A stretch of DNA of 64,000 nt from Ignavibacteria bacterium. Lineage in GTDB: Bacteria > Bacteroidota > Ignavibacteria > Ignavibacteriales > SURF-24. The notes below the pieces were generated by a model. It saw only the letters and a program-made list of their open reading frames with translations, had not been told where the DNA came from and searched no databases. The DNA is taken from positions 197,105 to 261,104 of the forward strand of contig JAAXKQ010000003.1 in NCBI GenBank assembly GCA_025612245.1, given 5' to 3'. The stretch's first letter is position 1; the number at the start of each line of letters is the position of its first letter. Both the position numbers and the translations under genes were made by a program. Shown one piece after another: positions 25,046 to 62,773 of this stretch.

Positions 25046-26422
25046 ATGATAAATAAAAAACTTCTAAGCAGTGATGAGATCCAGGAAATAATGCCTGAGC
25101 TGGGTCTTGAGTTTGCAGTAGTTCATAACCCCGCTCTGGTTTACCCGGAAACCGAACTGCTTCCGCTTGCACCCAAAATTACAGCTCCGCAAAAAGAGCT
25201 CTCGGCAGTAGTCCTGGACCTTGAAGGGGCTGCCTGCACGACGGTTGATTTGCGGCTCCATTCGCTTGAGTATGTCATCCGTTCAATCAGCGGAAGGCTT
25301 TCCAGGGATGAGTGGAAAGGGCTTGACCCGTTATTGGACTATCCCAATCTTCTTGGCATCAGCGTCTCAGAGCAGATCCGCTACCTCATACAGCGCTACC
25401 ATAATTTCATTAAGTCCGATCAGATGAAAGATGCTTATTTTAATTCGGTACTCTGGACCAGCATCCTAAGCCACGACGAGGAACGAAAGCTTGAAGCCGG
25501 GCACAGCCTGGAATATTTCGGGCTTCAGGATATGCTCAAAGACAGCAAGTTCAACGAACTCGTCATACAGAAGGAATTTAACAAGTACAATTCCAACATC
25601 ATCACCAATTACTTCGTGCACAAATACGGCAGCCTGCTGAACCTTCAGAATTTCGAGAACTCCATAAGAGCTGCTGCGGAAATATTTTACAGGCATTATC
25701 ACCAAACACTTGAGCTGATAAAGTATGGCGAGGGCTCTAACCTGGCTGAAAAGCTGACCGGAAAGAGCGATATGCCGCTTATAAGGCCCCTGGCCTCAGT
25801 TTCCCTGCTCTTTGCCCTCGTGAAAGGATGGCTTGGTGAGGAGGTCGATTACCTCTTTGATGAATTAAACCAGGAGCTTAAACTTAAAAGCAGCCAGGTC
25901 TACCGGATAAGCAGTCCGGCGGAAGCCAGGCTGAAACTGAAAAAGCTGGGCAGGCATTTCGAGACTCACCCGGTAAAGATTGCACTTGCTACCTCATCGG
26001 CTTCCTATGAAGCCGGCATTGTACTTGAGGAGCTCTTTAACGTAATTTCCCACGAGATAAGAAAGTGGAAATTGCCACAGGCAAAAAAAGACCTCCTTTT
26101 AGGAAAGTTTTCCGACTTCAGGAACGTAGTTGACGTTTTTGTTACAGGAAGCCAGTCCAGTAAGATGAGGCCCAAACCCCACCGCGACCTTTTCAGCTTG
26201 GCCTTAGGCAAGCTCGGTTTGCCAAGGAGCATGTTCCACCAGGTACTGGGCTTTGAAGACTCAGAGAACGGAATCATTGCACTCCGGGCCTCGGGCATCG
26301 GACTTGCCGCTGCGGTGCCTTTTGCAAAAAGCACGCGGAACGACTTTTCTGCGGCAGCATTCATACTACCCGGGGGCATAAGCGAGGCAATACTGAATCA
26401 CGACCTGTTCATAAGTCTTTAG
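25046..26422 (+). CDS. HAD-superfamily hydrolase, beta-phosphoglucomutase-like, with large insertion
   Basis: A 458-residue protein. Four HAD motifs are recognisable in order: VVLDLEGAA (motif I, nucleophile D58, but the usual second Asp is Glu), LATSSAS (II), RPKPHRDLF (III, Lys) and VLGFEDSENGIIALRASG (IV). The FEDS...G..A..AG pattern is that of the beta-phosphoglucomutase/phosphatase branch. The family normally has about 220 residues. Here about 240 extra helical residues separate motifs I and II, and there is a 45-residue N-terminal extension. The gene is followed by aldose epimerase, which fits a sugar-phosphate substrate. That is inference. Confidence 0.75.
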   Translation: MINKKLLSSDEIQEIMPELGLEFAVVHNPALVYPETELLPLAPKITAPQKELSAVVLDLEGAACTTVDLRLHSLEYVIRSISGRLSRDEWKGLDPLLDYPNLLGISVSEQIRYLIQRYHNFIKSDQMKDAYFNSVLWTSILSHDEERKLEAGHSLEYFGLQDMLKDSKFNELVIQKEFNKYNSNIITNYFVHKYGSLLNLQNFENSIRAAAEIFYRHYHQTLELIKYGEGSNLAEKLTGKSDMPLIRPLASVSLLFALVKGWLGEEVDYLFDELNQELKLKSSQVYRISSPAEARLKLKKLGRHFETHPVKIALATSSASYEAGIVLEELFNVISHEIRKWKLPQAKKDLLLGKFSDFRNVVDVFVTGSQSSKMRPKPHRDLFSLALGKLGLPRSMFHQVLGFEDSENGIIALRASGIGLAAAVPFAKSTRNDFSAAAFILPGGISEAILNHDLFISL

Positions 26423-27783: not shown

Positions 27784-28980
27784 TTGAAAAAGATTGCAGT
27801 TATATTCGGGACACGCCCGGACACTATAAAAATGGCGCCTATAATACAGGAGATAAAAAAGAACAGTAAACATTTTGAACTATTGACCATCGCTACCGCC
27901 CAGCACAGGCAGATGCTCGACCAGGTACTTCAGGTCTTCGAGATTAAACCCGACTACGACCTGAACATAATGAAACCGAAGCAGACGCTTGCTTCAATTA
28001 CAAAAAACACAATTGAAGAGCTGGACAACGTCTTCAGCAAGGAAAAGCCGGACATGGTTCTGGTTCAGGGGGATACAACTACAACATTCGTAGGAAGCCT
28101 GGCCGCCTTCTACAGGCAGATTCCCGTGGGACATATTGAAGCCGGACTCAGGACAAACGACAAGGCAAACCCTTTTCCCGAAGAGATCAACAGGAGACTT
28201 ACAAGCGCAATTACAGACCTGCACTTTGCCCCCACGGAAACGGCAAAGAAAGCCCTTTTGAAGGAGAACATCGATCCTTCGGCCGTTTTCGTCACCGGCA
28301 ACACGGTCATTGACGCCTTAAAGGTTTCTGTAAAGAAAAATTACAGATTTTCGATAATGAAGTTGAATAAACTCATCAGTCAGAAAAAGAGAATTGTACT
28401 GCTTACGATGCACCGGAGGGAAAACTGGGGAGAACCGATGCAGGGAGCGTGCAATGCCGTAAAAAGACTTGCTGAGGCTTATCCGGATCTGAATTTCGTT
28501 TTTCCGGTGCATCTTAACCCGATTGTCAGGGACGTCGTATTCCCTACTCTCGGCAACATTGAAAACGTACACCTGATTGAACCGCTGGACTATCTGGACT
28601 TTGTTAATCTTATGGCAAAGTCGTACCTGATCATAACCGATTCGGGCGGCGTACAGGAAGAAGGACCTCACTTCGGAATACCGATTCTGGTACTAAGAAA
28701 GGTAACCGAACGCCCCGAGGCCGTTAAGTTCGGAACGGTTAAACTGGTAGGACTGGATGAAGGCAAGATCTTCTCGACGGCAAAAAAACTCCTGGATAAT
28801 AAGGACTATTATAATAAGATAGCTTCAGCCGTAAACCCTTATGGGGACGGGCTTTCGGCAAAAAGGACGTTGCAGATCATCAAGAATTACTTTGGCCTTT
28901 CCAAAGCTTCCGTAAATGAGTTCATCCCCAAGGCCGGAAATAAAAAGGCCGGAAGGAAAATTTCCGGAAACAAAAAATAA
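27784..28980 (+). CDS. wecB: UDP-N-acetylglucosamine 2-epimerase (non-hydrolysing)
   Basis: A 398-residue cytoplasmic enzyme that converts UDP-GlcNAc to UDP-ManNAc, or a WbpI-type variant that acts on UDP-sugar acids. Its signatures are GTRPDTIKMAPI (the usual Glu is Asp), GDTTTTFVGSLAAF, GHIEAGLRT, TMHRRENWGEP and TDSGGVQEEGP. The TTG start at 27784 is preceded by AAGGATGAGATAA. The last 25 residues form a Lys/Gly-rich tail (KAGNKKAGRKISGNKK) beyond the family fold. It is transcribed toward the 29157 deacetylase gene and ends before a terminator. It could supply sugar to either polysaccharide locus in the window. Confidence 0.9.
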   Translation: MKKIAVIFGTRPDTIKMAPIIQEIKKNSKHFELLTIATAQHRQMLDQVLQVFEIKPDYDLNIMKPKQTLASITKNTIEELDNVFSKEKPDMVLVQGDTTTTFVGSLAAFYRQIPVGHIEAGLRTNDKANPFPEEINRRLTSAITDLHFAPTETAKKALLKENIDPSAVFVTGNTVIDALKVSVKKNYRFSIMKLNKLISQKKRIVLLTMHRRENWGEPMQGACNAVKRLAEAYPDLNFVFPVHLNPIVRDVVFPTLGNIENVHLIEPLDYLDFVNLMAKSYLIITDSGGVQEEGPHFGIPILVLRKVTERPEAVKFGTVKLVGLDEGKIFSTAKKLLDNKDYYNKIASAVNPYGDGLSAKRTLQIIKNYFGLSKASVNEFIPKAGNKKAGRKISGNKK

Positions 28981-29023
28981 AGGACGGGGTAAAATACCGC
29001 GTTAGATGTACTCTGAATGATTA

Positions 29024-29070
29024 AACCGGATCTGGGGGCTTCCCTCCGGCGCGAAGCCTCAGATCCGGTT
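29024..29070 (+). terminator. Terminator-like hairpin after wecB
   Basis: AACCGGATCT and AGATCCGGTT pair perfectly, and an inner GGCTTC/GAAGCC extends the stem. The tail is TTGTTTCTCC. It lies 44 bases past the wecB stop. Confidence 0.7.
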
Positions 29071-29156
29071 GTTTCTCCTCAGGCAATTAATTCTATAAGA
29101 GCATTCTCTTTTCCCGGAGAATCAGGCTCTTTATATTCCACTTTAACAGAAAACGT

Positions 29157-32100
29157 ATGAGACATTATAAAATTTTTTTTCTTGTACTACTTACATTACT
29201 GACTGCCTCACTGAACTTTGCAGCAGAAAATGGCACTAAGAAAGTACTTATAGTTGTTCAGGGCAGTTCAAGCCTTAAAAACCATGCAATTGGAGACGCC
29301 CGCCAGCTGGCAACACTGATGGGGCATTTCAGGACAGACGTCACCTATAAAGGCGTTGATGAATACAAACCCAAAGAATTAAATAACTACGATTACACGT
29401 TCTATATAGGCTTCTATGTAAAAAATTCCGTTCCGCAGAGGTTTGTTGACGACGTCCTTAGGACGAATAAGCCCGTAATATGGATGAATACCGGTATGGT
29501 TGAATCCTCCAGAAATAACGCCTTTAAGAGCAAATACGGCTTCAGCATCTCGCGCATAGACTCCTCGTACCAGTTCGACCTGGTTAAGTCGGGCAAAAAG
29601 GTCTTTACAAAGGGTGAAGGCAAGAATAACCTCGTGGAGATACTGGACAGGAAAAAAGTTGAGGTGCTGGCTACGGCTTATGCAACAAGAAAGAAAGTTG
29701 AGGTCCCTTACATAGTCAGGTCCCAGAATCTTCTTTACGTAGCCGATTCCCCGTTTGCCTATGCTACAGAGACGGACCGCTATCTTCTCTTTGCAGATAT
29801 GCTGCACGATATACTGCACGAAAACCACGAATCCTCTCACTCGGCAATTTTGAGAATCGAGGACATCAATCCTACGGACAGCCCGGATAAGATAAGAGAA
29901 GTGGTGGACGTTTTGTCCGAACGAGGAATTCCATTTCTTGTAGGAGTAATTCCTTTTTATGTAAACCCGGGCGACGGCACAAGGCTGAGCCTTTCTGACA
30001 AGCCCGACCTAGTCGATGCGCTTAAATACGCGGTCCAAAACGGAGGGTCTATCGTCATGCACGGCTCGACTCACCAGTACAGGGGCATTACGGCAGGCGA
30101 TTTTGAATTCTGGGACGGCAACGCTGACCAGCCGATTAAAAACCAGACCGAAGCCGATATCAGGCAAAAAGTTGAAATGGGCATACAGGAGCTGATGAAA
30201 AACGGCCTGTACCCGGTTGCCTGGGAAACCCCTCACTATACGGCATCTTTCCTTCTTTATAAGACCGTGAGCAAGTATTTCAGTACCGCCGTTGAACAGA
30301 GGCTTGCAATTGAAAGCTCCGACTACAGCCAGTATTTCCCGTACATTATAAATAAAGATCTTTTCGGACAGCAGATATTTCCGGAAAACCTGGGCTACGT
30401 CCCCCTTGAAAAGGATATCAACATCAGCCGTAAATATGTCCAGAACATCATCAAGGGAGCAAAAGTTAACCTTAACGTGCGCGACGGCTTTGCAGCCTGC
30501 TTCTTTCACTCGTTTCTGGACGTAAGCCTGCTCGAAGAACTCGTCGACGGCGTACGGGCCCAGGGCTACACGTATATCGACCTTAAAGACTACAATAACT
30601 GGGTCAGGACGAACAACCGCATAGTCCTTACCGGCTCTCAGACTTACTCGCTCAGCCTGACGGACCAGTACCTGACGGAATCATACATTAATGATAAGGG
30701 CGAGGTAATAAGAAAAACTATCTCCGATAATAAACTGAGCGGGCTCATCACAAAAGACATTAAGCTCAAGCCCGGGGAACTCTACAAGGCTGAACCGATT
30801 GAGTTCAGGGAATATGAACCCTCATTTTTTGAGAAGATAGTAAACTACTTCAAGAAACTCTTCGACAGCCTCTTCCATAGAGAAGAAAAATGGAGCAATG
30901 CACACGTTGCAGTGCTGTGGAACCATTACGCCAATGGCGCAGCATACAACGACCAGGCATCCCTGGTTTCAGTCTTTAAGAGCGTCAACATTAACGTAGA
31001 TACTATATTTACCGGCGAGCCCATAAACCTTTCAAATTACAACGTACTTCTGGTCCCCTACGCTGCCGTAGATTCACTGCAGCCTAAGGATTATGACATT
31101 ATAACACAGTACGTTGCAAATGGCGGAAATATAATTACAGACACCAAAAACGAAGTGGCAAAGGAACTGGGCATAAAGTTCAGCACTACGAATATTAAAG
31201 TGCATGGAGTAAGGGATAAGTACTTCATGGAAGAAAAGATATTCTGGAAAGAAGGCGAACTGATGAACAAGTTTGATGTTGAAGGCAAGGTCGACGAAGT
31301 CTTCAGCACGGATAACATTTCAGGCGCCCCGGTGGAGATCGGCAAGCAGTTCGGCCAAGGCAAGGTATTGTTTATTGGTTCCCGGTTTGATCCGCACTCA
31401 CTGCACGGATACAGCCTTTACCCGTTTTTGATGGAACACGTAAGGAAGTATTTTCACATGAGGCCCGCCGTAAGGCGCGATAACCTGGAGGTTTATTTCG
31501 ATCCCGGATTCAGGCACAATATGAGTACCGAGGACCTTATTAAGCAGTGGGTTCACCAGGGGATCAGAATTATCCACGTGGCCGGATGGCATGAGTACCC
31601 GAAATATACCTACGACTACAAAAAACTCATTGAGCTGGCGCACGCAAACGGAATACTGGTCTATGCATGGCTGGAACCCCCGCAGGTAAGCCTCAAGTTC
31701 TGGCAGCAGCATCCGGAGTGGAGAGAGAAAAACTACAAGGGCGAGAACGTCAGGCCTTCCTGGCGCTACCCGGTTGCACTTACAGATCCGGAATGCCTGA
31801 AGGCAATGACCGGGGAATTCAATAAATTCCTTTATTCCTATCAGTGGGACGGCGTCAACCTTGCAGAGCTTTATTTTGAAGCCGGAAAGGGGCTCGAAAA
31901 TCCAAACCTCTTTACACCAATGCATCCGAGCGCACAGAAGGAATTCAGACAGAGATACAACCTGGACCTGAAGAAAATATTTACGCCAGGATCTGGTTCT
32001 TACTGGAAGACAAATTCCTATGTAAAGAACGCCGTTACAGAATACAGGATCAATAAGCTCTCGGAAATCTACGACCGCCTTCTGGGCGCATTCTCCGGCG

Positions 32101-33098
32101 TCGCACGCAACAAGAAAGGCTTCCAGGTAATAGTAACTGCAATGGACAGCTACGGCTCACCTGAATTAAAGGACTATATCGGCGTTGATATGGAGAAGAT
32201 ACTTGCCCTGCAGAAAAAGTATAATTTCCTGCTCCAGGTGGAGGATCCTCAGAACCTCTGGTCAACAGACCCGATGCGCTATGTCGAAATCGGGAAGAAA
32301 TATGACGCTTTAATCGGCGACAGCACAAAGTTACTGCTCGATCTTAATATACTTACTTTCAGGAACAACGAGTCTTTTGCTACTCCGTTCCCGACACAGA
32401 TACAGACCGGTACAGAGAGCTTCCTGCTCGTAAAGGCAGCCTCCTTAGGCGCTCCAAGGCTTACAATTTATGCCGAGTCCAGTGTAAACCCGCAGGACAT
32501 GTTCTTTTTGCCCTATGCGCTTGCCAGTGACGTGGAATACTCCTTTACAGGAAACGGATACCAGACAAATGCGCCCTACTCATTCTTTATCCGTCTGCCC
32601 AAGGACGTGCAGGAGATTCTGCTGGACGGAAATCCGATTGCCCCTTCAAGGGAAAACTCGTTTTTAATACCGGCCGGAAGACATTTTATAAAGCTGAATA
32701 AAAACATCACTAATACATTCTCAACTCATGAGCTTCAGACAAGGATCATGTCGTTTACCGGAAACATACTTTCGGTTAACTACGGAATGCAGAAGGTCAG
32801 CTTCGAATATCAGTCCGAGGCACGCACCAGCATTTCGCTCAACCGCGAACCCACCAGCCTTAAGGTCGACGGTAAGGAATGCGGCTTTGCCGTTCTGAAG
32901 GGAAATGACTGCTACAGCATATTCCTTCCGACTGGAAGACACCAGGTGGAACTTGTTGCCGGGAACGCATTCTCCTACGGGATCAACCTGACGAGCTTGT
33001 GGTCTTCAAACGGAATTGCAATCTTCGGTTCCATTGCAATCATGATGCTCCTGGTAATGTATTTTACGATGAAGATATATAAGAGAAAATACCGCTGA
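29157..33098 (+). CDS. Multidomain membrane-anchored deacetylase/glycoside-hydrolase-like protein (DUF2334 + TIM barrel)
   Basis: This 1313-residue protein is probably periplasmic, tethered to the inner membrane. The signal peptide is 1-22. A Rossmann-like part (about 27-210) is followed by a DUF2334 deacetylase (about 225-495) with its metal site (RIEDINP near 233, HGSTH at 302-306, a later WETPHY and FFHSFLD). Next are a second Rossmann/GATase-like domain (about 580-765), a TIM-barrel glycosidase-like domain (about 775-1090, with WDGVNLAELYFE near 897), a beta-rich region, and a C-terminal membrane helix (about 1278-1300) before KIYKRKYR. Deacetylase plus hydrolase in one protein resembles PgaB and PelA. 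It precedes a GT2 synthase. No activity is proven. Confidence 0.82.
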   Translation: MRHYKIFFLVLLTLLTASLNFAAENGTKKVLIVVQGSSSLKNHAIGDARQLATLMGHFRTDVTYKGVDEYKPKELNNYDYTFYIGFYVKNSVPQRFVDDVLRTNKPVIWMNTGMVESSRNNAFKSKYGFSISRIDSSYQFDLVKSGKKVFTKGEGKNNLVEILDRKKVEVLATAYATRKKVEVPYIVRSQNLLYVADSPFAYATETDRYLLFADMLHDILHENHESSHSAILRIEDINPTDSPDKIREVVDVLSERGIPFLVGVIPFYVNPGDGTRLSLSDKPDLVDALKYAVQNGGSIVMHGSTHQYRGITAGDFEFWDGNADQPIKNQTEADIRQKVEMGIQELMKNGLYPVAWETPHYTASFLLYKTVSKYFSTAVEQRLAIESSDYSQYFPYIINKDLFGQQIFPENLGYVPLEKDINISRKYVQNIIKGAKVNLNVRDGFAACFFHSFLDVSLLEELVDGVRAQGYTYIDLKDYNNWVRTNNRIVLTGSQTYSLSLTDQYLTESYINDKGEVIRKTISDNKLSGLITKDIKLKPGELYKAEPIEFREYEPSFFEKIVNYFKKLFDSLFHREEKWSNAHVAVLWNHYANGAAYNDQASLVSVFKSVNINVDTIFTGEPINLSNYNVLLVPYAAVDSLQPKDYDIITQYVANGGNIITDTKNEVAKELGIKFSTTNIKVHGVRDKYFMEEKIFWKEGELMNKFDVEGKVDEVFSTDNISGAPVEIGKQFGQGKVLFIGSRFDPHSLHGYSLYPFLMEHVRKYFHMRPAVRRDNLEVYFDPGFRHNMSTEDLIKQWVHQGIRIIHVAGWHEYPKYTYDYKKLIELAHANGILVYAWLEPPQVSLKFWQQHPEWREKNYKGENVRPSWRYPVALTDPECLKAMTGEFNKFLYSYQWDGVNLAELYFEAGKGLENPNLFTPMHPSAQKEFRQRYNLDLKKIFTPGSGSYWKTNSYVKNAVTEYRINKLSEIYDRLLGAFSGVARNKKGFQVIVTAMDSYGSPELKDYIGVDMEKILALQKKYNFLLQVEDPQNLWSTDPMRYVEIGKKYDALIGDSTKLLLDLNILTFRNNESFATPFPTQIQTGTESFLLVKAASLGAPRLTIYAESSVNPQDMFFLPYALASDVEYSFTGNGYQTNAPYSFFIRLPKDVQEILLDGNPIAPSRENSFLIPAGRHFIKLNKNITNTFSTHELQTRIMSFTGNILSVNYGMQKVSFEYQSEARTSISLNREPTSLKVDGKECGFAVLKGNDCYSIFLPTGRHQVELVAGNAFSYGINLTSLWSSNGIAIFGSIAIMMLLVMYFTMKIYKRKYR

Positions 33099-33181
33099 AA
33101 AAGACTCTCTTAAAAAAAGAAAACTGCAGACCTTGGCACCCTGGAAAAACAGGATTCGATTTGCAACGACATAAATTGTTT

Positions 33182-33209
33182 TGCCGGGGAAGCTTAAGCT
33201 TCCCCGGCA
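33182..33209. terminator. 28-base perfect palindrome between the deacetylase and synthase genes
   Basis: TGCCGGGGAAGCTT is followed at once by its own reverse complement. It would form a very stable hairpin with a TTAA loop, 84 bases after the deacetylase stop and 91 before the GT2 start. No T-run follows, so it may be a partial terminator, an mRNA-stabilising hairpin or a protein-binding site. Confidence 0.6.
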
Positions 33210-33299
33210 GAATAAATGTGTAAGTTTCCAGGGGTCTCCGTTGCCTGCAGCTTTAAGAATTAATACTTATTGCTGTTCTATTTAATAAAAGGAAAATCA

Positions 33300-34625
33300 A
33301 TGTCAGTCTTAGAAGTAGATTTAAGCTTTTTGTTCGTTGTTGCTGTCATACTGATATGGTTCATGATAGGCTATCAGTTTATCCTTACCGTATACGGTTA
33401 CTTCAACTACATGAAATCACTGAAGGAAAAGAAGGAAGTGGACAGTAAGGAATACGACCTCCCTTCCTGCAGCATTCTTATTCCTGCACACAATGAGGAT
33501 AAGGTAATAGGCCATACAATTGAAGCAATGCTAAGGTTAAACTATCCCAAAGATAAACTTGAAATTATTGTCATTAACGACGGCTCGAAGGACAGGACAA
33601 AGGAGATCATTGAGCACTATGCCTCTTTGGACAGCCGCGTTGTGCTCTATGACGTTCCTAAGGGAGAAGGCGGCAAAGGTAAATCGCGCGCGCTTAACCT
33701 CGGCATTAAGCAGGCCAAAAGCGAAATCATTGCCATCTATGACGCAGATAACACACCGGATGAAAACGCGCTGAAGTACCTGGTAATTCAGCTTACTACG
33801 CACAAGGAACTGGGCGCGGTGCTTGGTAAATTCAGGACTGTCAACAAAAACACGAACCTCCTTACAAAATTCATCAACATTGAGACGCTGAGCTTCCAGT
33901 CGATGCTTCAGGCAGGAAGATGGCAGATGCACAGGATTGCCACGCTGCCTGGAACAAACTTCGTCATGTGGAGCTCACTCATAAAGAAGCTCGGAGGCTG
34001 GGATGAAGAGGCCCTTACGGAAGACTCCGAACTCAGCATCAGAATTTACCAGGAAGGCTATAAGATTAAATTTATCCCGTACGCAATTACCTACGAACAG
34101 GAACCGCAGGAATGGAAGGTCTGGATCAGGCAGCGCATGAGATGGGTAAGAGGCAATAATTACGTCATCGCCAAATTCTTTAAGCATATACCAAAGTTCA
34201 AGAACAAGCGCCTGGCCTTTGACCTTTTATATAACCTTTCCCTTTATTACGTGTTCTTTGCTGCAATTCTTATCTCAGACGTGCTTTTTATTATAAGCGC
34301 GATGAACCTTGTAAGCATTGCCCTTCCGGGGCCCTATACGTTTGTATGGATCATGGCATTCTTCCTTTTCATACTCGAAATTACGCTTGCCATTTCATTC
34401 GATGAAGAGGAAAGCTTTAAGAACGTTTTTCTCATAATACTCAGCTATTTCAGCTACTGCCAGCTCTGGATTTATATTGTCCTTAAAGCTATTTATTCCG
34501 AATACATTAAGAAAGAAAAACGCACGTGGGATAAAACCGTAAGGTTTGAAGTTAAGCCTTCACAGCTGCCCCATCAGGCGGAAGTTTTAAGTAAGGAGCT
34601 GACAGATGAACGGCAGAACAAATAA
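33300..34625 (+). CDS. Processive family 2 glycosyltransferase (PgaC/BcsA-like synthase)
   Basis: A 441-residue inner-membrane polysaccharide synthase. The N-terminal helix is at about 7-30, followed by a GT-A catalytic domain with INDGSKDRTKE, the DxD motif in YDADNTPD, the catalytic TED (LTEDSELS) and the processivity motif QRMRW. Three to four C-terminal helices follow (about 295-420). The motif set is that of PgaC, NodC and hyaluronan-type enzymes that polymerise a beta-linked sugar. The start chosen is ATG 33300 behind AAAAGGAAAAT, not the upstream TTG at 33270. Its last 20 bases overlap the outer-membrane barrel gene, so the pair is coupled. Confidence 0.92.
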   Translation: MSVLEVDLSFLFVVAVILIWFMIGYQFILTVYGYFNYMKSLKEKKEVDSKEYDLPSCSILIPAHNEDKVIGHTIEAMLRLNYPKDKLEIIVINDGSKDRTKEIIEHYASLDSRVVLYDVPKGEGGKGKSRALNLGIKQAKSEIIAIYDADNTPDENALKYLVIQLTTHKELGAVLGKFRTVNKNTNLLTKFINIETLSFQSMLQAGRWQMHRIATLPGTNFVMWSSLIKKLGGWDEEALTEDSELSIRIYQEGYKIKFIPYAITYEQEPQEWKVWIRQRMRWVRGNNYVIAKFFKHIPKFKNKRLAFDLLYNLSLYYVFFAAILISDVLFIISAMNLVSIALPGPYTFVWIMAFFLFILEITLAISFDEEESFKNVFLIILSYFSYCQLWIYIVLKAIYSEYIKKEKRTWDKTVRFEVKPSQLPHQAEVLSKELTDERQNK

Positions 34626-35946
34626 AACATTTATACTTGCAGCAGCCCTGGTCGTATTGCTTTCTTCCAGGGCTTTTTCACAGTTCTCATTCTACGGCAA
34701 TACGAGCTTCGGATACAACGAAAATCCGCTTTATAATTACCAGAAAAAGCCGGACCAGCTGAAGCAGTCTTACCTGGAAATGAATTATCTTAAACAATTT
34801 GAAAGTTCAAAATTGTCTTTTAGCTATGTCAGCGGGCTCATGCTCTTTAACCAGCTAAGCGACAGAAATTTCTACGAGCACAACATTTTCGCCAGATACA
34901 ACCTGAGGCTTTCCAAGAAAAGCCTCAGCAAGCCTGAAGAGGCTTCATCCCCGGAAAGCTCTTCCGACTCCACGGCTGAAATAAATGGCCAAGAAGAGAA
35001 TGCATCAGAAGAAGATGCCTCCGCCGAAAGCATCATGGAAGATTCAAGCGCCAGTTACCTGGGCTTTACACTGCAGGCAGGAGCCCGGCACGACAAGACT
35101 GCATTCAAGGAATTCGACAACTTCGGCTCAGGCTTCAGCCTTTCATACAAGACACAGCCCTGGGACGCATTCTCGCTCCGGATCAGCAATTCAGCAGGCT
35201 TAAGAAATTACTCCTACATCTCCGAACTCTCAAACCTGACGGACCAGCTCTCCATCCAGATATTCAACAGGTATAACGGCTCTTACCAGTACGGAATCTC
35301 TTTTTCTGGCGGTATTAAATATTATACCCGGTCCATGTACGACACCACAAAGTTTGAAAGCAAGAGGAGCTTTAACCAGAAAAGCCAGGGGAAGGGAAAA
35401 CTGGGTTCAAAGATATCCGTCCCATCTTCAAAACAGATACTCCTGGAGCCGCAGGAAAACGGCACCTCGCAGTTTACTGCAGGCGTATTTTTCAATAAAA
35501 ACTGGGAAACGTCAACCTCATTAAAGACAAATTTCCTTTACAGGTTTAACCCCAGGACTCTTACAAGATATCTTGCCCAGTATGCCAATACGTCCATGCT
35601 TTCTGAAGACATATATAACGACTTTTTCAGCTACCAGGGCTTTGAGGCTAAAGTTTCTCTTTACCAGCCCCTGCCCTGGAGTCTTCAGATGTCCGTGGAG
35701 TACAATTTCCAGCAGAAAAACTTTGAAGCCCCGGCGCTTAACCTGGAGGGCGTACAGATAGGAAGCGAGAAGCGCTCGGACCTGGCAAATTCAGTTGAGC
35801 TCTACCTTTCAAGAGGCTTTAGCCTCTTTGAGGGATTTGACCTGGATTTGATGCTAGGAGCAGGAATCCTAAGGAACCAGTCAAACGACGATTACAACGA
35901 TTTTTCATCTTATCACTTAACAGGAACAATAGGCATAGGATTCTAA
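34606..35946 (+). CDS. Predicted outer-membrane beta-barrel protein of a polysaccharide locus
   Basis: A 446-residue exported protein. The signal peptide is 1-26 (ALVVLLSSRAFSQ). The body is rich in alternating aromatic/polar beta-strands (FSFYGNTSFGYNENP, LSLYQPLPWSLQMS-like segments). The last strand ends GTIGIGF, a typical C-terminal Phe. An acidic low-complexity insert (about 105-148, many Glu, Ser and Asp) looks like a large loop. I know no named family for it. Its gene overlaps the GT2 gene and is four bases from the YCF48 gene. By position it is the best candidate for the export pore, as PgaA and PelB are in other systems. Confidence 0.72.
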   Translation: MNGRTNKTFILAAALVVLLSSRAFSQFSFYGNTSFGYNENPLYNYQKKPDQLKQSYLEMNYLKQFESSKLSFSYVSGLMLFNQLSDRNFYEHNIFARYNLRLSKKSLSKPEEASSPESSSDSTAEINGQEENASEEDASAESIMEDSSASYLGFTLQAGARHDKTAFKEFDNFGSGFSLSYKTQPWDAFSLRISNSAGLRNYSYISELSNLTDQLSIQIFNRYNGSYQYGISFSGGIKYYTRSMYDTTKFESKRSFNQKSQGKGKLGSKISVPSSKQILLEPQENGTSQFTAGVFFNKNWETSTSLKTNFLYRFNPRTLTRYLAQYANTSMLSEDIYNDFFSYQGFEAKVSLYQPLPWSLQMSVEYNFQQKNFEAPALNLEGVQIGSEKRSDLANSVELYLSRGFSLFEGFDLDLMLGAGILRNQSNDDYNDFSSYHLTGTIGIGF

Positions 35947-35950
35947 TGAA

Positions 35951-38074
35951 ATGAAAATAAAAATAATTCTTCTTTTACTGACCATGCTTGGCATGACGGC
36001 TCAGGCCGAGGACTGGCGGTGGCAGAACCCAAAGCCACAGTCTAATACGCTCTGGGCGGTATCATTCTTCAACGAATATTACGGCTACGCAGTTGGCGGC
36101 TGCGGCACAATCATGTTCAGCCCCGACGGCGGGAAAAGCTGGGAAGTACAGTTTGAAGCCATTACAGACACACTCAGGAGCATTTCCGTTGTAGATTCAA
36201 TAACAGCCTTTATTGCAGGCGATGACGGCTCCATTTTTGCTACAACAAACGGCGGTACCACCTGGAACCAGCAGAACGACAAAAACGGAACCCCGCTAAA
36301 TCCCAATGGACTTAACTCAATTTTCTTTACTTCCAAATCAACCGGATGGGCTGCCGGAGATAACGGGACAATTCTTTCGACCTTAAACGGCGGAAAGTCC
36401 TGGTCGGCCCAGACCTCGGGCGTTCCTTCAACCGTAAACATTAACTCAATTTTCTTTACCAGCAGTTCGAACGGATGGGCTGTCGGTTCCGGCGGAACCG
36501 TTCTCTACACTACCAACGGCGGAAGCAGCTGGCTTTCAAAGGCCATGGGTGAAAACGCCTCAGTCATTAACTCAACCGTAAAATTCCTTGACGCCTCAAC
36601 AGGTTTTATACTGGGTTATAACGGCCAGAGCGGCGTAGCTTACATTACTCGCAACGGAGGAGCAAGCTGGAGCCAGGTAGGAATAAGCGCCCAGGGCGGC
36701 TTAAATGACATTACGTTCCTTTCTTCCTCGGAATTCTGGATTTCAGGAGACAACGGACTCATGCTTCACTCCTTAAACTCGGGCGTCACATGGAATAATG
36801 AACCACTTAACACCTATGCCTCGGTGCATGGACTTTCGGCTGTCTCAGGCTCACTATGCGCTGTAGGAGAGTTCGGCCTTATTGCCGGCAGGCAAGGAAA
36901 TAGCACCTGGAACTTCATAAATTCGGGAACAATTCCCAGCATTAACTGGATAGCATTTGGCGACCAGTTCCACGGCTATGCCGGAGGACAGTACGGCTAC
37001 ATGGTTAAAACAGATGACGGAGGAAAGACCTGGACCGAAATTACCAAGGGAATTACGGGCGATTCTTTCTACGGGGCTTCCGCCATCGGGAAAGACAACC
37101 TATGGGTCGTTGGTGATATGGGAATTCTTCTTCATACTTCCGACGGCGGACAAAACTGGTCGCAGCAGATTAACACACTGCAGGACGCCGTAACAATTGA
37201 AGCCGTAAGCTTTACAGACGCCCTTAACGGCTGGGCCGTAGGTGACCAGGGTAAGCTCATACATACGACAAACGGCATAAACTGGACGTACCAGAATCCC
37301 AATACTAAGAATGTCCTCTTCGGCATTAAGTTCGTGGATACTCAAAACGGCTGGATTTGCGGAGAGAACGGACTCATAATGCGTACTCAGAACGGAGGAC
37401 TCAGCTGGACAAAACAGAACGAAAACTCCTCTTACGCACTTTTGTCCGTTGACTTTAGAGACTTAAATAACGGGTATGCTTCGGGCACTAACGGCACTAT
37501 ACTCAAGACCATAAACGGCGGAAGCAGCTGGGTGCGCCTTAATACAAATACAACCGCCACTATTAACTCGGTTGTAAGCAGGTCCGAAAATGTTGTCTAT
37601 GCCACCGCTGACGCCGGGCTTGTCTTGCACAGCAGCGACGGAGGCCAGTCCTGGAGCGAGGAGTTTGCTTCAACGGCATACGACCTGTTTGCAACTTATA
37701 TGCTTAACGACTCAACGCTCTGGATCGGGGGCGACATGGGTACAATACTGGCAAAAGGGGACGCTTCAGCTATTACTTCGGTAAAAGATGATATCCATTC
37801 GGCTTCTCCCGTAGCCTTCAGGCTTTCACAGAACTACCCGAATCCGTTTAATCCTGAAACCACAATCAGGTTCTCGCTCCCCTCTTCAGGAAACGTGACA
37901 CTCAGGGTCATTGACATACTGGGGCGTGAGGTCTCAAGGCTTCTTGATGGCTTTAAGTCTGCAGGTGACTACTCGATTCACTTTGATGCACACGGGCTCT
38001 CAAGCGGAATATATTTCTATGAGCTTAGAGAAGGTTCATTTACAGAAATTAAAAAGATGTCGCTCCTGAAATAA
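35951..38074 (+). CDS. YCF48-repeat protein with T9SS type A sorting domain
   Basis: A 707-residue secreted protein. The signal peptide is 1-19. About fourteen YCF48/Hcf136-like propeller repeats (about 22-610) carry the units GWAVG-GGTVLYTTNGGSSW and GYASGTNGTILKT; the repeats suggest two seven-bladed propellers. The C-terminal 85 residues form a type IX secretion sorting domain (QNYPNPFNPETTIRFSLP). It is therefore exported through the T9SS to the cell surface. Its gene begins four bases after the barrel gene and closes the operon before a bidirectional terminator. Propeller domains bind ligands; a carbohydrate or adhesin role is inference. Confidence 0.92.
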   Translation: MKIKIILLLLTMLGMTAQAEDWRWQNPKPQSNTLWAVSFFNEYYGYAVGGCGTIMFSPDGGKSWEVQFEAITDTLRSISVVDSITAFIAGDDGSIFATTNGGTTWNQQNDKNGTPLNPNGLNSIFFTSKSTGWAAGDNGTILSTLNGGKSWSAQTSGVPSTVNINSIFFTSSSNGWAVGSGGTVLYTTNGGSSWLSKAMGENASVINSTVKFLDASTGFILGYNGQSGVAYITRNGGASWSQVGISAQGGLNDITFLSSSEFWISGDNGLMLHSLNSGVTWNNEPLNTYASVHGLSAVSGSLCAVGEFGLIAGRQGNSTWNFINSGTIPSINWIAFGDQFHGYAGGQYGYMVKTDDGGKTWTEITKGITGDSFYGASAIGKDNLWVVGDMGILLHTSDGGQNWSQQINTLQDAVTIEAVSFTDALNGWAVGDQGKLIHTTNGINWTYQNPNTKNVLFGIKFVDTQNGWICGENGLIMRTQNGGLSWTKQNENSSYALLSVDFRDLNNGYASGTNGTILKTINGGSSWVRLNTNTTATINSVVSRSENVVYATADAGLVLHSSDGGQSWSEEFASTAYDLFATYMLNDSTLWIGGDMGTILAKGDASAITSVKDDIHSASPVAFRLSQNYPNPFNPETTIRFSLPSSGNVTLRVIDILGREVSRLLDGFKSAGDYSIHFDAHGLSSGIYFYELREGSFTEIKKMSLLK

Positions 38075-45238: not shown

Positions 45239-45757
45239 ATGAGCGATACTTTCAAACTTTTTCAGATTGATCAGGATGTTCAGGGGCTGCTCGACTCCGA
45301 AGCCAGTTATTCCGAGGATACAGGAGAACTCTTGCCTGAGATCCGTGAAAAGCTGGAAACTCTTAGCCAGTCGCGTTCGGATCTGATATATGATCTGGCA
45401 CAGTACAATCTTTACTGTGCCGATCTTGAAGAAATGGTAAAAAAGGAGATACGCCGGCTTCAGGCGCTTCAGAGTAAGCTTCAGAAGAAATCTGAATCTG
45501 TAAAAAAGACGCTCAAAGCGTTCATTCCTGAAGGTGAAAGCGTTGATTTCGGGACTGTAAAAATAAGCTGGCGAAAATCCTCGCACGTTATTACCGATGA
45601 GGTGCTCGACCTGGAAGAACTCGAAAAAGCTTGTCCTCAGCTTGTTAAGCACTCGCGTGAACTTAAAAAAGAGGAAGTAAAGAATTATTTCAAGGCAACT
45701 GGACTGGTACCGCTCGGCTGCGAAATAATTGAAAAAAACAATCTTATCATTGGGTAA
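45239..45757 (+). CDS. Siphovirus Gp157-like protein
   Basis: A 172-residue protein of the Gp157 family found in siphophages near recombination genes. The N-terminal half is helical and coiled-coil (about 30-105, LSQSRSDLIYDLAQYNLYCADL, then RRLQALQSKLQKKSESVKKTL). The second half carries the family's small beta unit ISWRKSSHVIT and the ending GLVPLGCEIIEKNN. Its role in phages is unclear; it has been linked to host resistance and recombination. It is 21 bases upstream of the SSAP gene and certainly in the same operon. No integrase, capsid or other phage gene is nearby. Confidence 0.82.
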   Translation: MSDTFKLFQIDQDVQGLLDSEASYSEDTGELLPEIREKLETLSQSRSDLIYDLAQYNLYCADLEEMVKKEIRRLQALQSKLQKKSESVKKTLKAFIPEGESVDFGTVKISWRKSSHVITDEVLDLEELEKACPQLVKHSRELKKEEVKNYFKATGLVPLGCEIIEKNNLIIG

Positions 45758-45778
45758 AAACCATTAGGAGAAGAAACT

Positions 45779-46675
45779 ATGGAAAATGCTGTTTCAAGCT
45801 ATGAACAGAATAATATGCAGAATATTGCCGAAAATGAGACTTCAAACCTGACCCCGTTTAACAATATGTACCAGAAGGCAAGCCTTCTTACGGTAACCGA
45901 AAAGGAGCAGAAAGCCCTCGAAGCACCTCTCAACCCGGATGAAGTTGAAATACGCCCCGACGGACTAATCTATTACCCGCAGGTCTTTTATCGCGAAAAG
46001 CTGAATTCAATCTTTGGAATCGGGCAATGGGCGCTCATTCAGCACTCGATCTCAAAAATCGGCAATACGCTCTGCTTCGACGGTTCACTTTATGTAAGGG
46101 GATGCTTCGTCAGCCGCGCACTCGGCGAACATGAATACTATGAAAACAACAGGAATACGAGCTGGGCTTCGGTCTATGAGGCCGCCAAAAGCGACTGCCT
46201 GGTAAGGTGCTGCAAGGATCTGGGAATCGCAAAAGAATTGTGGCAGCCTGCATACGGGCGCGATTGGGTTAAAAAATATGCCGTGAAGGTCTTTGTTGAA
46301 GTAAAAGACCGCCAGACCGGCAAGACCGAAACCAAAGCTCAGTGGAGAAGAAAAGACGCCGATCCGTTCTGGAATGAGAAAGGCATAGTACCCGGCTCAA
46401 AGTATGAGCCTCCTCAGCAGAAAAAATCTCATACCACCCCGGCGGCCCAGGCCGAGGCTCCTCAGGCCGGAACTTTTACGGAAGCTGAACCCCAAAATCT
46501 GGTTGATTCTGTAAGGGATACACTGCCAAAGCTGAATAACCTGAGCGAAATAAAGGACTACTGGGAGGAAATCTTCCCCCTTTATAATAAACTGCCGGTT
46601 GAATCCAAAAGGATCGTCAACAAGGAGTTCAAGTACTATAGAGACGCCGTAAAATCCTCCGGATTGTTCCACTGA
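45779..46675 (+). CDS. Mgm101/Rad52-like single-strand annealing protein
   Basis: A 298-residue protein whose core (about 50-200) fits the Mgm101/Rad52 superfamily of annealing recombinases. DGLIYYPQVFYREKLNSIFG, IGQWALIQH, SKSDCLVRCCKDLGIA-like and ELWQPAYGRDWVKKY are the recognisable parts. These proteins bind single-stranded DNA and pair complementary strands, usually in phages and mitochondria. The N-terminus is Asn-rich and the C-terminus (about 205-298) has a Pro/Ala/Gln linker and a helical end of unknown function. It follows Gp157 with a strong ribosome site (TTAGGAGAAG). The assignment is by motif reading and not searched. Confidence 0.78.
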   Translation: MENAVSSYEQNNMQNIAENETSNLTPFNNMYQKASLLTVTEKEQKALEAPLNPDEVEIRPDGLIYYPQVFYREKLNSIFGIGQWALIQHSISKIGNTLCFDGSLYVRGCFVSRALGEHEYYENNRNTSWASVYEAAKSDCLVRCCKDLGIAKELWQPAYGRDWVKKYAVKVFVEVKDRQTGKTETKAQWRRKDADPFWNEKGIVPGSKYEPPQQKKSHTTPAAQAEAPQAGTFTEAEPQNLVDSVRDTLPKLNNLSEIKDYWEEIFPLYNKLPVESKRIVNKEFKYYRDAVKSSGLFH

Positions 46676-50156: not shown

Positions 50157-51509
50157 ATGAATAGACAATTCTGCTTTTCCGGAGGATTCCAAAGGTTTTT
50201 AATACTGGTCACTTTTCTTTTGCTCACCGGCTGCGGACGGGATTCGGCACACACATATTATGTCGATTGTAAAAAAGGAAGCGATTCCAATTCCGGCAGA
50301 TCGGCTTCAAACGCATTTAGGACCATTCGGAAAGCTTCCGAGGTCATCTCTCCGGGTGAGGTGTGCATAGTAAAAAAAGGTAATTACCCCGAAAGGGTTT
50401 ATATCCATACTTCCGGCACTAAAGAAAACCCAATTACCTTCAAAGCTTCAGGAAAAGGCGTCGTTACAAAGGGTTTTACCGTTGAAGCCGATTTTGTAAG
50501 AATTGAGGGCTTTGAAATCACCTCTACTTCCCCCAAGGGATGGAAAGAAGGAGCCGGAATTCACTTAAAAGGTCGCGGCTGCAGGCTTACTAATAACTAC
50601 ATACACGACGTGTTCTTAGAGGGAATCCGCCTTGGAGACGACCTTACTTCAGCCTCTACCAGCAACTGCCTGGTAAGCGGAAACAGAATGATCCGCTGCG
50701 GACAGGCAGGCATTCAGATCTGCGGACAAAACAATAGGGTCGAAAATAACGAGATTTCCGGTACGGTGCAGTGGTCAAAAACTAACCCACAGAAACTTGA
50801 TGCCGATGGCATGAGGTTCTTCGGTTCAGGGCACGTAATAAAAAAAAACCGCGTACATAGTATTCTCTTAAGCGACCCTGAAAACAGCGATCAGCCTCAC
50901 ATAGACTGCGCACAGACCTGGGGACCCGCAAGCAATATTGTCTTTGAAGACAATGACTTCAGCCTCGGAGAGAATACGCTCAACAAGGAGATCATCATGA
51001 TAACCGAAGTCACTCCGCCGGTCGGAAACATTATATTCAGGAACAACATATTCCACGACGCCTTCAGGGGCCTTAATATTTTCGGTTCCCACGCCCCCGG
51101 GCATCCGAGCCCCATAGTAGACGTAAAAATTCTGAACAACACATTTGCCGGCTTTTCAGACAACGCATTTGAACTGCACGATACGCACGATGCAAAGGTC
51201 ATAAATAACATTTTCTACGAATGCACTTCAATTTTTGTCGACCCCAAAAGCAGAAATGCGAACCTTGAATCGGGCTATAACTGCTACTACCGGAAAGGAG
51301 GCAGACAAACCCGGGGAGTTAAAGCTTCTCCTTCGGACTTAATAAACGTAAACCCTGAATTTCAGGATCCAGCAAAAAAGAACTTCCGCCTCAGGAGCTC
51401 TTCTCCGCTTAAGGGCCGGGGAAAAGTTTTATATGAAACAGGAACGGATTTACCCGGAAAATCCATAAAAAAAACAAAAGCTCCGGACATAGGGGCATTT
51501 ATTCCTTGA
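50157..51509 (+). CDS. Right-handed beta-helix lipoprotein
   Basis: A 450-residue paralogue of the 46949 protein (close to half identical by eye from the N-terminal YYVDCKKGSDSNSGRS through FGSHAPG). It has a lipoprotein signal peptide with lipobox LLTGC (Cys23) instead of a plain signal, and it ends after the beta-helix at about 450 with no Ig-like or T9SS part. It should be lipid-anchored at the periplasmic or outer face of the outer membrane. A polysaccharide-active role is suggested by fold and context. Its 3' end overlaps the convergent deacetylase gene by 11 bases (51499-51509). Confidence 0.88.
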   Translation: MNRQFCFSGGFQRFLILVTFLLLTGCGRDSAHTYYVDCKKGSDSNSGRSASNAFRTIRKASEVISPGEVCIVKKGNYPERVYIHTSGTKENPITFKASGKGVVTKGFTVEADFVRIEGFEITSTSPKGWKEGAGIHLKGRGCRLTNNYIHDVFLEGIRLGDDLTSASTSNCLVSGNRMIRCGQAGIQICGQNNRVENNEISGTVQWSKTNPQKLDADGMRFFGSGHVIKKNRVHSILLSDPENSDQPHIDCAQTWGPASNIVFEDNDFSLGENTLNKEIIMITEVTPPVGNIIFRNNIFHDAFRGLNIFGSHAPGHPSPIVDVKILNNTFAGFSDNAFELHDTHDAKVINNIFYECTSIFVDPKSRNANLESGYNCYYRKGGRQTRGVKASPSDLINVNPEFQDPAKKNFRLRSSSPLKGRGKVLYETGTDLPGKSIKKTKAPDIGAFIP

Positions 51510-52395
51510 TGCCCGACAGACTGTCCTCGGGCACTGAAGTACCTTCTTCCGGACTTTGCTCTACCCTTCTTCTTCTTCGCCTCGACTTTATTCGTATCAG
51601 CTTTTCCTTCAGAATCCTCAGGTAATTAAGCCACGCATAAGCTCCCAGGATCTTTAGCTTAAATTCCAGGAGTGAGTCCGAAGGATCGGTTCTTACCCTG
51701 CCTAAAAGCAACCCCTTCAACTCTGAAGAAGAAACTTCATAGCCGATTGAAAACAGCCTTTTATAACCCGCTTCCCGTGCAGCTTTCAGCATACTGCAGT
51801 TTAAGTCGCCATAAGGGAACGAGAACATCTCTACAGGCTTTCCCGTTACGGCCTCCAGGACTTCCTTCGACTTTAGGAATTCCTCCTTTACCTCCAGAGA
51901 GTCCATTTTTGTCATCATCCTGTGCAAATAGGAGTGAGACCCAATTTGAACAAGGTGCCCCGGAAGGCGTTTTATTTCACGAGCTCTCATTACCTCTTCA
52001 TTTCCATCCTGGAAACTCGTATTGGTCCTCCAGTTGGGTTTCCTGCCTAGGAATTTTACGGGAAAGAACAAGGCACAGGGTATTCCATGCCTTATCAGTT
52101 CAGGAAGAGCATTCCTGAGGAGGCAGTTAAAACCGTCATCAAAGGTAATAATTACATAGTTCTTCCCTGCCTGGAGTTTTCCCATATAGTCGGCTCTTAT
52201 GGGTTGAACCGTTTTCTTAAGCAGTTTAATCTGCCTGATGAACTTTTCTTTTTCGTCGTCCCTGACGGAATGGTAATAAATCACCTGGCATCTTCCTGAG
52301 GGTTTTCTTCCTGAAAGGAAAAGCAAGGCATTCTTAAGCAGGAGAAACAGCCTGAAAAGAATGCTTATTAGTATTTTTATTCTGCGGTATTTCAC
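51499..52395 (-). CDS. Polysaccharide deacetylase (CE4 NodB-like)
   Basis: A 298-residue CE4 deacetylase with an N-terminal membrane helix (about residues 5-25, ILISILFRLFLLLKNALLFL). The NodB domain (about 40-225) holds motif 1 ITFDDGF (catalytic and metal Asp), motif 2 IGSHSYLH (His pair HSYLH) and motif 3 FSFPYGD. It would remove N-acetyl groups from polysaccharide near the membrane. The C-terminal tail has RIKSRRRRRRVEQ, a strong basic run. The start is a GTG at 52395 that shares one base with the stop of the GT2 gene (TAGTG). It is late in the capsule operon. Confidence 0.9.
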   Translation of the reverse strand: MKYRRIKILISILFRLFLLLKNALLFLSGRKPSGRCQVIYYHSVRDDEKEKFIRQIKLLKKTVQPIRADYMGKLQAGKNYVIITFDDGFNCLLRNALPELIRHGIPCALFFPVKFLGRKPNWRTNTSFQDGNEEVMRAREIKRLPGHLVQIGSHSYLHRMMTKMDSLEVKEEFLKSKEVLEAVTGKPVEMFSFPYGDLNCSMLKAAREAGYKRLFSIGYEVSSSELKGLLLGRVRTDPSDSLLEFKLKILGAYAWLNYLRILKEKLIRIKSRRRRRRVEQSPEEGTSVPEDSLSGIKE

Positions 52396-53315
52396 TAGAC
52401 CTGGTATTCTTTGTTTTTTGCGGTTTTTGAAGCCTTAAAAGGGGCCTTGAAGTAAACGATATTTGCTATTCGTTCTATCTGTTCTTTTCTCACATAGCGC
52501 ACAAAATCGCTTGAGACCGGTCTTTCCTCCTTCTTCAAAGTTGTCCACCAGAATCCGGCAAAGCGGCATATACTTCCTATAACGTAAGGCTTTTCCTTCA
52601 TTCTGAAGATGCATTTTAAGACCTGGAAGAACGGGTGATAGCCCAGAGAATACTCAACTGCTCCCTGGCGGAACTTGAAATTCAACACGTTCAGCACGGC
52701 TGTTCCCGTTCTGCGGTGGTGAAGAACCATGAGGTGTGAGATGGATTTTACCTGCCAGCCATGCATCCTGACAGAAATTTCAGCCACACCATCCTCCCCT
52801 CCGTTGGCAATTGGCGTAAGCCCACCAAGCCTGTCGAAACACTCGCGCCTGAAGAACTGAATTGCATTACCCACGCTGTTTCCGCTGTTGATCCCTTTGT
52901 GCATCTTCCCGTCGTAAAGGTCAAATATCTGCCCTCCCGCAAGCCCAAGGTCCGGATCCTTGTCAAATTCACTTATAAGCTTTTTATAGTAATCAGGCTC
53001 AAAGGTAATGTCGGCATCCAGTATGCCGAGAAAGTCGTATTCCAGGTCCCTGAGCATGTCGTATCCGATATTGATTGCATAGACTTTCGAGGCAAAATTC
53101 CTCCCTTCGGCACTCGTTACCCTGTGAAGCTGAATAAAATCATGTTCCGCCTCATAGCGGCTTACTATTTCATCTGTACAGTCTGTAGATCCGTCACTTA
53201 CAATTACCCATTTAAGAGGAAGAACGGACTGCTTTAACACGGACTTTATTGTGTTTTCAATGAATATCTCCTCATTTTTTGCAGCTGTGATCAGTACGTA
53301 TGAAGTCTTCTTCAT
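52395..53315 (-). CDS. Family 2 glycosyltransferase
   Basis: A 306-residue cytoplasmic or membrane-associated glycosyltransferase that adds one sugar to a lipid-linked repeat unit. The GT-A fold is visible from VLITAAKNEEIFIENT through VSDGSTDCTDE, the DxD-type LDADITFEPD and GGEDGVAEI in the acceptor region. The C-terminus lacks the multi-helix bundle of processive synthases. ATG 53315 is chosen over the TTG at 53330 because GGAGAATAAATCT precedes it. The start is four bases after the Wzy-like stop. The donor sugar is unknown. Confidence 0.9.
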   Translation of the reverse strand: MKKTSYVLITAAKNEEIFIENTIKSVLKQSVLPLKWVIVSDGSTDCTDEIVSRYEAEHDFIQLHRVTSAEGRNFASKVYAINIGYDMLRDLEYDFLGILDADITFEPDYYKKLISEFDKDPDLGLAGGQIFDLYDGKMHKGINSGNSVGNAIQFFRRECFDRLGGLTPIANGGEDGVAEISVRMHGWQVKSISHLMVLHHRRTGTAVLNVLNFKFRQGAVEYSLGYHPFFQVLKCIFRMKEKPYVIGSICRFAGFWWTTLKKEERPVSSDFVRYVRKEQIERIANIVYFKAPFKASKTAKNKEYQV

Positions 53316-53319
53316 AGAT

Positions 53320-56150: not shown

Positions 56151-56208
56151 AGCCCGGCCTCTTAAAATAATTCTTTTACTGATACTGACTAATTTTTCTC
56201 ATGCTGCC

Positions 56209-57381: not shown

Positions 57382-57416
57382 TTTTTCTTACCTCTTCTTT
57401 GTTGCCTTTTTCATGT

Positions 57417-59330: not shown

Positions 59331-59443
59331 ATTATTTTTTTCTCCCTTGTCTTAGCTTTAACCGTTTTTTGTTTTTAGTTAATTGAACTTTTTTGAGCCA
59401 TTAAAATTCCATAATAAAGACGATGAAACGTTGTACCGGATGC

Positions 59444-62038: not shown

Positions 62039-62113
62039 TTTATATTCTCCACATCTTAAGATTAAAGGACAGAAAAATCAGTTCAGCCATATAAGTCCTT
62101 TTATTTAATTGCC

Positions 62114-62722: not shown

Positions 62723-62773
62723 GATCAAATCCTGTTTGATAAAACCTACCTTTTAATTACTACTTTCTTAAAA

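Follow-up and report, generated by a model that had tools for sequence, protein, structure and literature searches.

The window analysed here, a stretch of 64,000 nucleotides (nt) from an Ignavibacteria bacterium (GenBank assembly GCA_025612245.1, contig JAAXKQ010000003.1, positions 197,105 to 261,104), contains five rightward open reading frames (ORFs) which we think likely to form a synthase-dependent exopolysaccharide machine. A preliminary description of this DNA had claimed, in order, a UDP-GlcNAc 2-epimerase, a large deacetylase and glycoside hydrolase protein (below, CE/GH), a processive GT2 synthase with the QxxRW motif, an outer-membrane barrel and a YCF48-repeat cargo of the type IX secretion system (T9SS); our analysis confirmed all five ORFs in place, together with every one of these domain calls (table 1). 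The last three genes are as tightly packed as had been claimed, with a 20-nt overlap between the GT2 and barrel genes and 4 nt between those for barrel and YCF48. The gaps upstream measure 176 nt (epimerase to CE/GH) and about 200 nt (CE/GH to GT2, taken from the ATG at 33300, which the alignment favours as the start over the TTG at 33270), and an inverted repeat lies in each of them.

Table 1. Features of the locus, in coordinates of the window
Feature	Position	Strand	Basis or remark
WecB-type non-hydrolysing UDP-GlcNAc 2-epimerase	27784..28980	+	TIGR00236, PF02350
Inverted repeat, epimerase-CE/GH gap	29024..29070	none	possible terminator or attenuator, without T tract
CE/GH, 1313-amino-acid (aa) secreted, C-terminally membrane-anchored deacetylase and glycoside hydrolase	29157..33098	+	PF10096, AlphaFold2 model, PgaB match
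DUF2334 deacetylase domain (aa 229-465)	29841..30551	+	Pfam, residue invariance
GH153/GH42-like TIM-barrel hydrolase domain (aa 774-1125)	31476..32531	+	AlphaFold2 fold, conserved acids
Inverted repeat, 20-nt arms, CE/GH-GT2 gap	33176..33215	none	single copy in window
GT2 processive synthase, PgaC-like, likely ATG at 33300	33300..34625	+	profiles, alignment
Signal-peptide protein predicted as outer-membrane beta-barrel of 16 strands, putative pore for export	34606..35946	+	predicted structure
YCF48-repeat beta-propeller ending in a T9SS sorting domain, putative partner at the surface	35951..38074	+	Pfam

In CE/GH, Pfam recognises DUF2334 (PF10096; residues 230-465, E 7e-49) and a GH42M-like domain (residues 607-749), and a Rossmann-like domain lies towards the N-terminus. 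Residues E235, D236, H302 and H306 of the DUF2334 domain are invariant in 49 sequences; in the aligned hydrolase domain D898 is invariant and E904 and E1029/D1030 are nearly so, and these we take as candidate catalytic acids. Two hydrophobic segments, a signal-like one at 6-24 and a membrane segment at 1287-1305, suggest that the protein lies in the periplasm and is held in the inner membrane by its C-terminus. A sequence search of the PDB with this protein gave no match and no sequence similarity to PgaB was found, although the folds of both PgaB domains match. For residues 1-1200 AlphaFold2 gave a model with a mean pLDDT of 88. Its top Foldseek match is PelA (9cgy); the top VIA-align matches, whose rows mostly span residues 772-1143, are five structures of the PgaB hydrolase domain (Z 21.9-22.6, root-mean-square deviation (rmsd) 3.8-4.2, 311-321 residues aligned within 774-1146). 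Whole PgaB comes next, over residues 226-1107 and with a large rmsd, which we read as a match of both domains in a different arrangement. Because GH42 enzymes score close behind (Z about 20), the fold alone does not settle the hydrolase family. Separately, in three Bacteroidales loci (L145, L151, L182) a second ORF (about 730 aa), which lies beyond the GT2 gene in the opposite orientation, also matches CE/GH (554-570 bits); the one aligned in detail, that of L182, matches only the glycoside hydrolase half.

The GT2 motifs DGS, DAD, ED and QRxRW are invariant among 24 aligned relatives. Its best characterised match is PgaC/IcaA (hhalign 99.8% to PgaC), and it scores 180 bits against the PgaC/IcaA equivalog profile, whose curated cutoff is 422, which puts it below equivalog level. 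When its own profile was run over 395 genomes of the phylum, 15 matches reached at least 746 bits, all of them in CE/GH-bearing genomes, and the next best scored 183. On these scores the protein represents a PgaC-like yet separate and sharply bounded family of processive synthases. It reaches a non-significant 24 bits against E. coli NfrB, and Pfam finds neither MshEN nor PilZ domains in it. By sequence, no significant match assigns any protein of the locus to PgaA, NfrA, PgaB or NfrB. The same genome (G000, contig C36, L214:7302-10673) encodes, as a separate candidate polysaccharide synthase, a deacetylase-GT2 fusion of 1124 aa whose parts resemble PgaC and PdaB/PgdA.

A scan of 84,980 species genomes for CE/GH returned 128 relatives, from which 80 loci were kept, 71 of them with enough sequence for the GT2 question. 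In 70 of these 71 the GT2 gene directly follows CE/GH on the same strand, usually at a spacing of -14 to +50 nt; the sole exception (L136) has a small ORF between the two. Across Ignavibacteria, Bacteroidales and a spirochaete, the neighbour most often found upstream of CE/GH is a WecB-type epimerase; in 34 of the 80 independent loci its gene immediately precedes that of CE/GH. Strong matches to the barrel and to the YCF48 protein were found in 22 and 13 of the 80 loci, respectively. Within the class, the DUF2334 protein of about 1300 aa is encoded by 46 of 197 genomes, next to a GT2 gene that often overlaps it by 4 or 8 nt, and with barrel, YCF48 and epimerase genes nearby in many. The order of genes in other Ignavibacteria, which the preliminary description had proposed as a check, is conserved. 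All five genes stand in this order again in L124 (71% identity), L135 and L143, and the GT2-barrel-YCF48 triple occurs in L131, L132, L133 and L152. By the labels on the metagenome-assembled genome (MAG) records, CE/GH loci occur in Ignavibacteria, Kapaibacteria, Kryptoniota, Bacteroidales, a spirochaete MAG, Acidobacteria/Terriglobia and unplaced bacteria. CE/GH and GT2 make up the conserved core, to which the epimerase comes closest; the barrel and the YCF48 protein are lineage-specific partners. With this restriction, the conserved order supports the claim that the genes form a single machine.

How such a system might work can be outlined from the genes present and their conserved neighbourhood, from their domains and predicted folds and from the conservation of catalytic residues; from these we infer the polymer, its sugar and the roles of barrel and propeller. 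WecB would convert UDP-GlcNAc to UDP-N-acetylmannosamine (UDP-ManNAc), which the inner-membrane GT2 would polymerise, feeding the chain into the periplasm. There the anchored CE/GH would act twice, its DUF2334 domain stripping some N-acetyl groups and its PgaB-like hydrolase domain trimming or releasing chains, so that the product is probably a partly deacetylated poly-ManNAc. In the source lineage the 16-stranded barrel would serve as outer-membrane exit pore; since the core occurs in some genomes without this barrel, other proteins must provide the exit route there. The last protein combines YCF48 repeats with a Por_Secre_tail domain (Pfam) and, because the source genome encodes the T9SS core component SprA, its secretion by that system is plausible. 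Outside the cell it would perhaps hold the polymer, although binding is a guess on our part.

Several observations weigh against this proposal. In the source genome the long gaps and their inverted repeats may mean two or three transcription units, and they make the single-transcript reading uncertain there; in most relatives the CE/GH and GT2 genes abut or overlap. A terminator scan showed no excess above shuffled sequence, and the operon borders are therefore drawn only from gap length and inverted repeats. The preliminary description had seen no cyclic di-GMP (c-di-GMP) domain and no partner such as PgaA, PelB or BcsC. In the five proteins Pfam finds neither PilZ, GGDEF, tetratricopeptide repeat (TPR) nor BcsB-like domains; a TPR protein, a co-polymerase and a receptor for c-di-GMP were all not found in the locus. 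PilZ is absent from the entire genome, in which neither other c-di-GMP receptors nor TPR proteins beyond these five were searched for. The remaining objections concern the sugar and the barrel.

The epimerase scores 505 bits against the wecB profile TIGR00236 (cutoff 210) and matches PF02350 at E 3e-121. Elsewhere in the source genome a second wecB is clustered with a gene for a nucleotide-sugar dehydrogenase, so the copy in our locus could be dedicated to it. In E. coli, the Nfr system requires UDP-ManNAc made by WecB, and a ManNAc polymer has been proposed as its product (PMC8669472, PMC8669469). A plasmid from Comamonadaceae (L220, CP099603.1) carries in one run wecB, an nfrB-like gene (40% identity of the product to E. 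coli NfrB), a DUF2334 gene, and genes for a TPR-NfrA_C protein and for a protein of DUF4434, the family of E. coli YbcH; its stand-alone DUF2334 protein is 29% identical to residues 48-475 of CE/GH. On a Streptomyces plasmid, a DUF2334 gene and a GH113-like one are oriented divergently to wecB and a GT2 gene. The linkage of wecB, these plasmid loci combining DUF2334, wecB and GT2, the Nfr precedent and the possibly dedicated wecB together point to a ManNAc polymer, with about even chances for this particular sugar. The same machine might instead produce poly-N-acetylglucosamine (PNAG) or a different polymer of hexosamines, in which case the epimerase would serve some other pathway or supply a minor component. 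Such a product would agree with the PgaC/IcaA match of the GT2 and with a hydrolase fold nearest to PgaB GH153; in 46 of the 80 loci, moreover, the epimerase is not adjacent to CE/GH, and a Wzx/Wzy-type cluster some 13 kb away in the window could use UDP-ManNAc. We nonetheless consider it doubtful, in view of the prevalence of the epimerase as upstream neighbour in such different groups, of the second wecB that is available for other uses and of the co-location of DUF2334 with wecB in unrelated phyla. The nfr-type cluster with deacetylase on CP099603.1, we note in passing, lies near a gene for an EAL protein.

The barrel protein (446 aa) has no Pfam family, no TPR and no profile match to PgaA. 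Its model (mean pLDDT 79, strands mostly above 90) has a signal peptide, 16 strands and disordered loops. Among the many 16-strand barrels to which it aligns are the equally sized pores of PgaA (4y25; Z 17.5, rmsd 4.5, 270 residues), PelB (9h80; Z 17.1, rmsd 4.0, 261 residues) and BcsC (6tzk; Z 16.6, rmsd 4.6, 284 residues). A structure prediction had been proposed as a check on whether this might be a TonB receptor or an adhesin; both were ruled out, the predicted barrel being pore-sized, with 16 strands where a TonB receptor has 22, and having no plug. Porins and the FhaC/CdiB barrels of two-partner secretion fit equally well or better, and because of these matches the fold permits an export pore without proving one.

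This lack of specificity bears on a second alternative, in which only CE/GH and GT2, perhaps joined by the epimerase, make up the machine, and the barrel and the YCF48 protein form a surface pair of their own (outer membrane and T9SS) that lies beside it by chance. Genomes with CE/GH and no linked barrel number 30, and in 26 of them no member of the barrel family occurs; as an essential universal part the barrel was ruled out, since many genomes with the core lack the family. In L163, L170 and L148 the barrel is on the opposite strand or upstream. A shorter paralogue of about 380 aa (L088, L102, L131, L133, L143, L123) adjoins in some loci a DUF4382 protein or two-component sigma-54 regulators, and sometimes stands directly upstream of CE/GH. 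What makes a chance association rather unlikely in our judgement is the distribution of the barrel itself: matches at E<1e-9 occur in 29 of the 197 class genomes, all 29 among the 46 that bear CE/GH (hypergeometric p 4e-23, uncorrected for kinship), they lie mostly inside the CE/GH locus, and the barrel overlaps GT2 or sits 4 nt from it in many loci. Barrel and CE/GH distances also correlate (Mantel r 0.92), a figure uncorrected for the species tree and hence weak evidence. In the distant loci L195 and L201 the place after the GT2 gene is taken by a different signal-peptide protein (277-302 aa), which to the eye resembles a barrel, and behind it comes an FG-GAP propeller whose match to a T9SS tail is weak; this suggests that unrelated families fill the same slots there. 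A 287-aa protein after the GT2 in L144 (Bacteroidales) was tried as a barrel homologue and found no support (1.3%).

That the GT2 glycan stays on the envelope as a glycolipid or wall polymer which CE/GH edits, with no exopolysaccharide secreted, would suit the C-terminal membrane anchor of CE/GH and the lack of a TPR scaffold and of an export pore common to all loci, yet it is improbable given that a QxxRW processive synthase with a deacetylase-hydrolase is the plan of PNAG export, that PelA has both activities and that the hydrolase fold is nearest to PgaB.

Elsewhere in the window, the Wzx/Wzy-type polysaccharide cluster (51499-63893, minus strand) encodes O-antigen ligase/Wzy-like, flippase-like, asparagine synthase and Wzz/tyrosine-kinase-like proteins. 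A Mu Gam-like end-protection protein beside an Mgm101-family (annealing-type) protein at 45239-46675 (plus strand) is possibly a phage or mobile-element remnant, and a 458-aa protein at 25046-26422 has a weak C-terminal HAD match only, the rest being without family.

In the literature searched we found no description of this locus and little on DUF2334, the function of which was not treated in detail. A 2020 survey lists only five synthase-dependent exopolysaccharides, with neither Ignavibacteria nor Bacteroidetes in its main text (PMC7112194). The exopolysaccharide machine proposed here would add one that is common to environmental Ignavibacteria, Kryptoniota, Bacteroidales and Acidobacteria, and would give DUF2334 a concrete and testable role as a periplasmic deacetylase of hexosamine polymers. 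It would also connect other phyla with the ManNAc-polymer logic of the phage N4 receptor pathway, and it points to a possible partnership between the T9SS and polysaccharide export.

The preliminary description had compared the locus with Pga and Pel and supposed that different families filled the same roles. The families are not wholly different: the deacetylase is DUF2334 rather than CE4, but the hydrolase fold is nearest to PgaB GH153 and the GT2 is PgaC-like. In E. coli PgaABCD, as by prediction here, a GT2 is joined by a 16-stranded outer-membrane barrel and by one periplasmic protein, PgaB, with an N-terminal deacetylase and a C-terminal GH153-like hydrolase. Unlike PgaB, with its CE4 deacetylase, CE/GH is membrane-anchored and carries the additional Rossmann-like and GH42M-like domains; PgaA is a TPR-porin whereas our barrel has no TPR, and the locus adds an epimerase and a T9SS propeller. 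A PgaD-like small membrane protein is absent from the five-gene run, to which that search was confined. As to Pel, PelA combines hydrolase, alpha/beta, deacetylase and beta-rich domains (PMC12022489), and the PelB barrel is among the matches of ours. The order of hydrolase and deacetylase in PelA is nevertheless opposite to that in CE/GH, the Pel synthase is the GT4 PelF with PelG instead of a GT2, PelD, PelE and PelC are likewise absent from the five proteins, and our barrel is without the TPRs. From cellulose synthesis (Bcs) the locus differs in that its GT2 lacks the PilZ of BcsA and its five proteins any BcsB-like domain.

Nearer relatives, missed in that first comparison, are the ManNAc-type systems. 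The phage N4 receptor pathway NGR of E. coli (NfrA-NfrB-YbcH with WecB) has a processive GT2, an outer-membrane barrel and UDP-ManNAc made by WecB as proposed substrate; its linked wecB is found here too, by linkage only, and DUF2334 is present in the nfr-type locus of the Comamonadaceae plasmid. In contrast, our GT2 is not NfrB-like and lacks the MshEN c-di-GMP domain, and in place of an NfrA-type TPR barrel (NfrA_C) and a DUF4434 protein the locus has the deacetylase-hydrolase fusion. Listeria Pss makes a ManNAc polymer, and YdaL of Bacillus contains DUF2334. B. subtilis was also positive in our PF10096 control. Within pssA-E, PssC is a PgaC/IcaA-like GT2 (PMC4125290), and in YdaJKLMN the putative glycosyl hydrolase is YdaJ (PMC13274460). 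Both systems belong to Gram-positive bacteria. A GT2, the synthase type of PssC and YdaM, is present in our locus; the BcsB-like protein of Pss and its c-di-GMP receptor, a degenerate GGDEF protein (PMC4125290), were not found among our five proteins. Since several defining features of each fail, we do not place the locus in Pga, Nfr, Pss, Pel or Bcs. In the five proteins the c-di-GMP co-polymerase or domain and the TPR scaffold of the general synthase-dependent plan are absent, while domains, predicted fold and gene order agree with the rest of it, an inner-membrane processive GT2, a periplasmic modification enzyme and an outer-membrane pore. It is conceivable, and we offer it only tentatively, that the locus exemplifies a further Gram-negative class, one with a DUF2334-GH153-like fusion and its own GT2, a partly deacetylated poly-N-acetylmannosamine, a TPR-less 16-stranded pore, a type IX-secreted propeller that keeps the polymer at the surface and so would tie the T9SS to polysaccharide export, and no PilZ-type c-di-GMP control.

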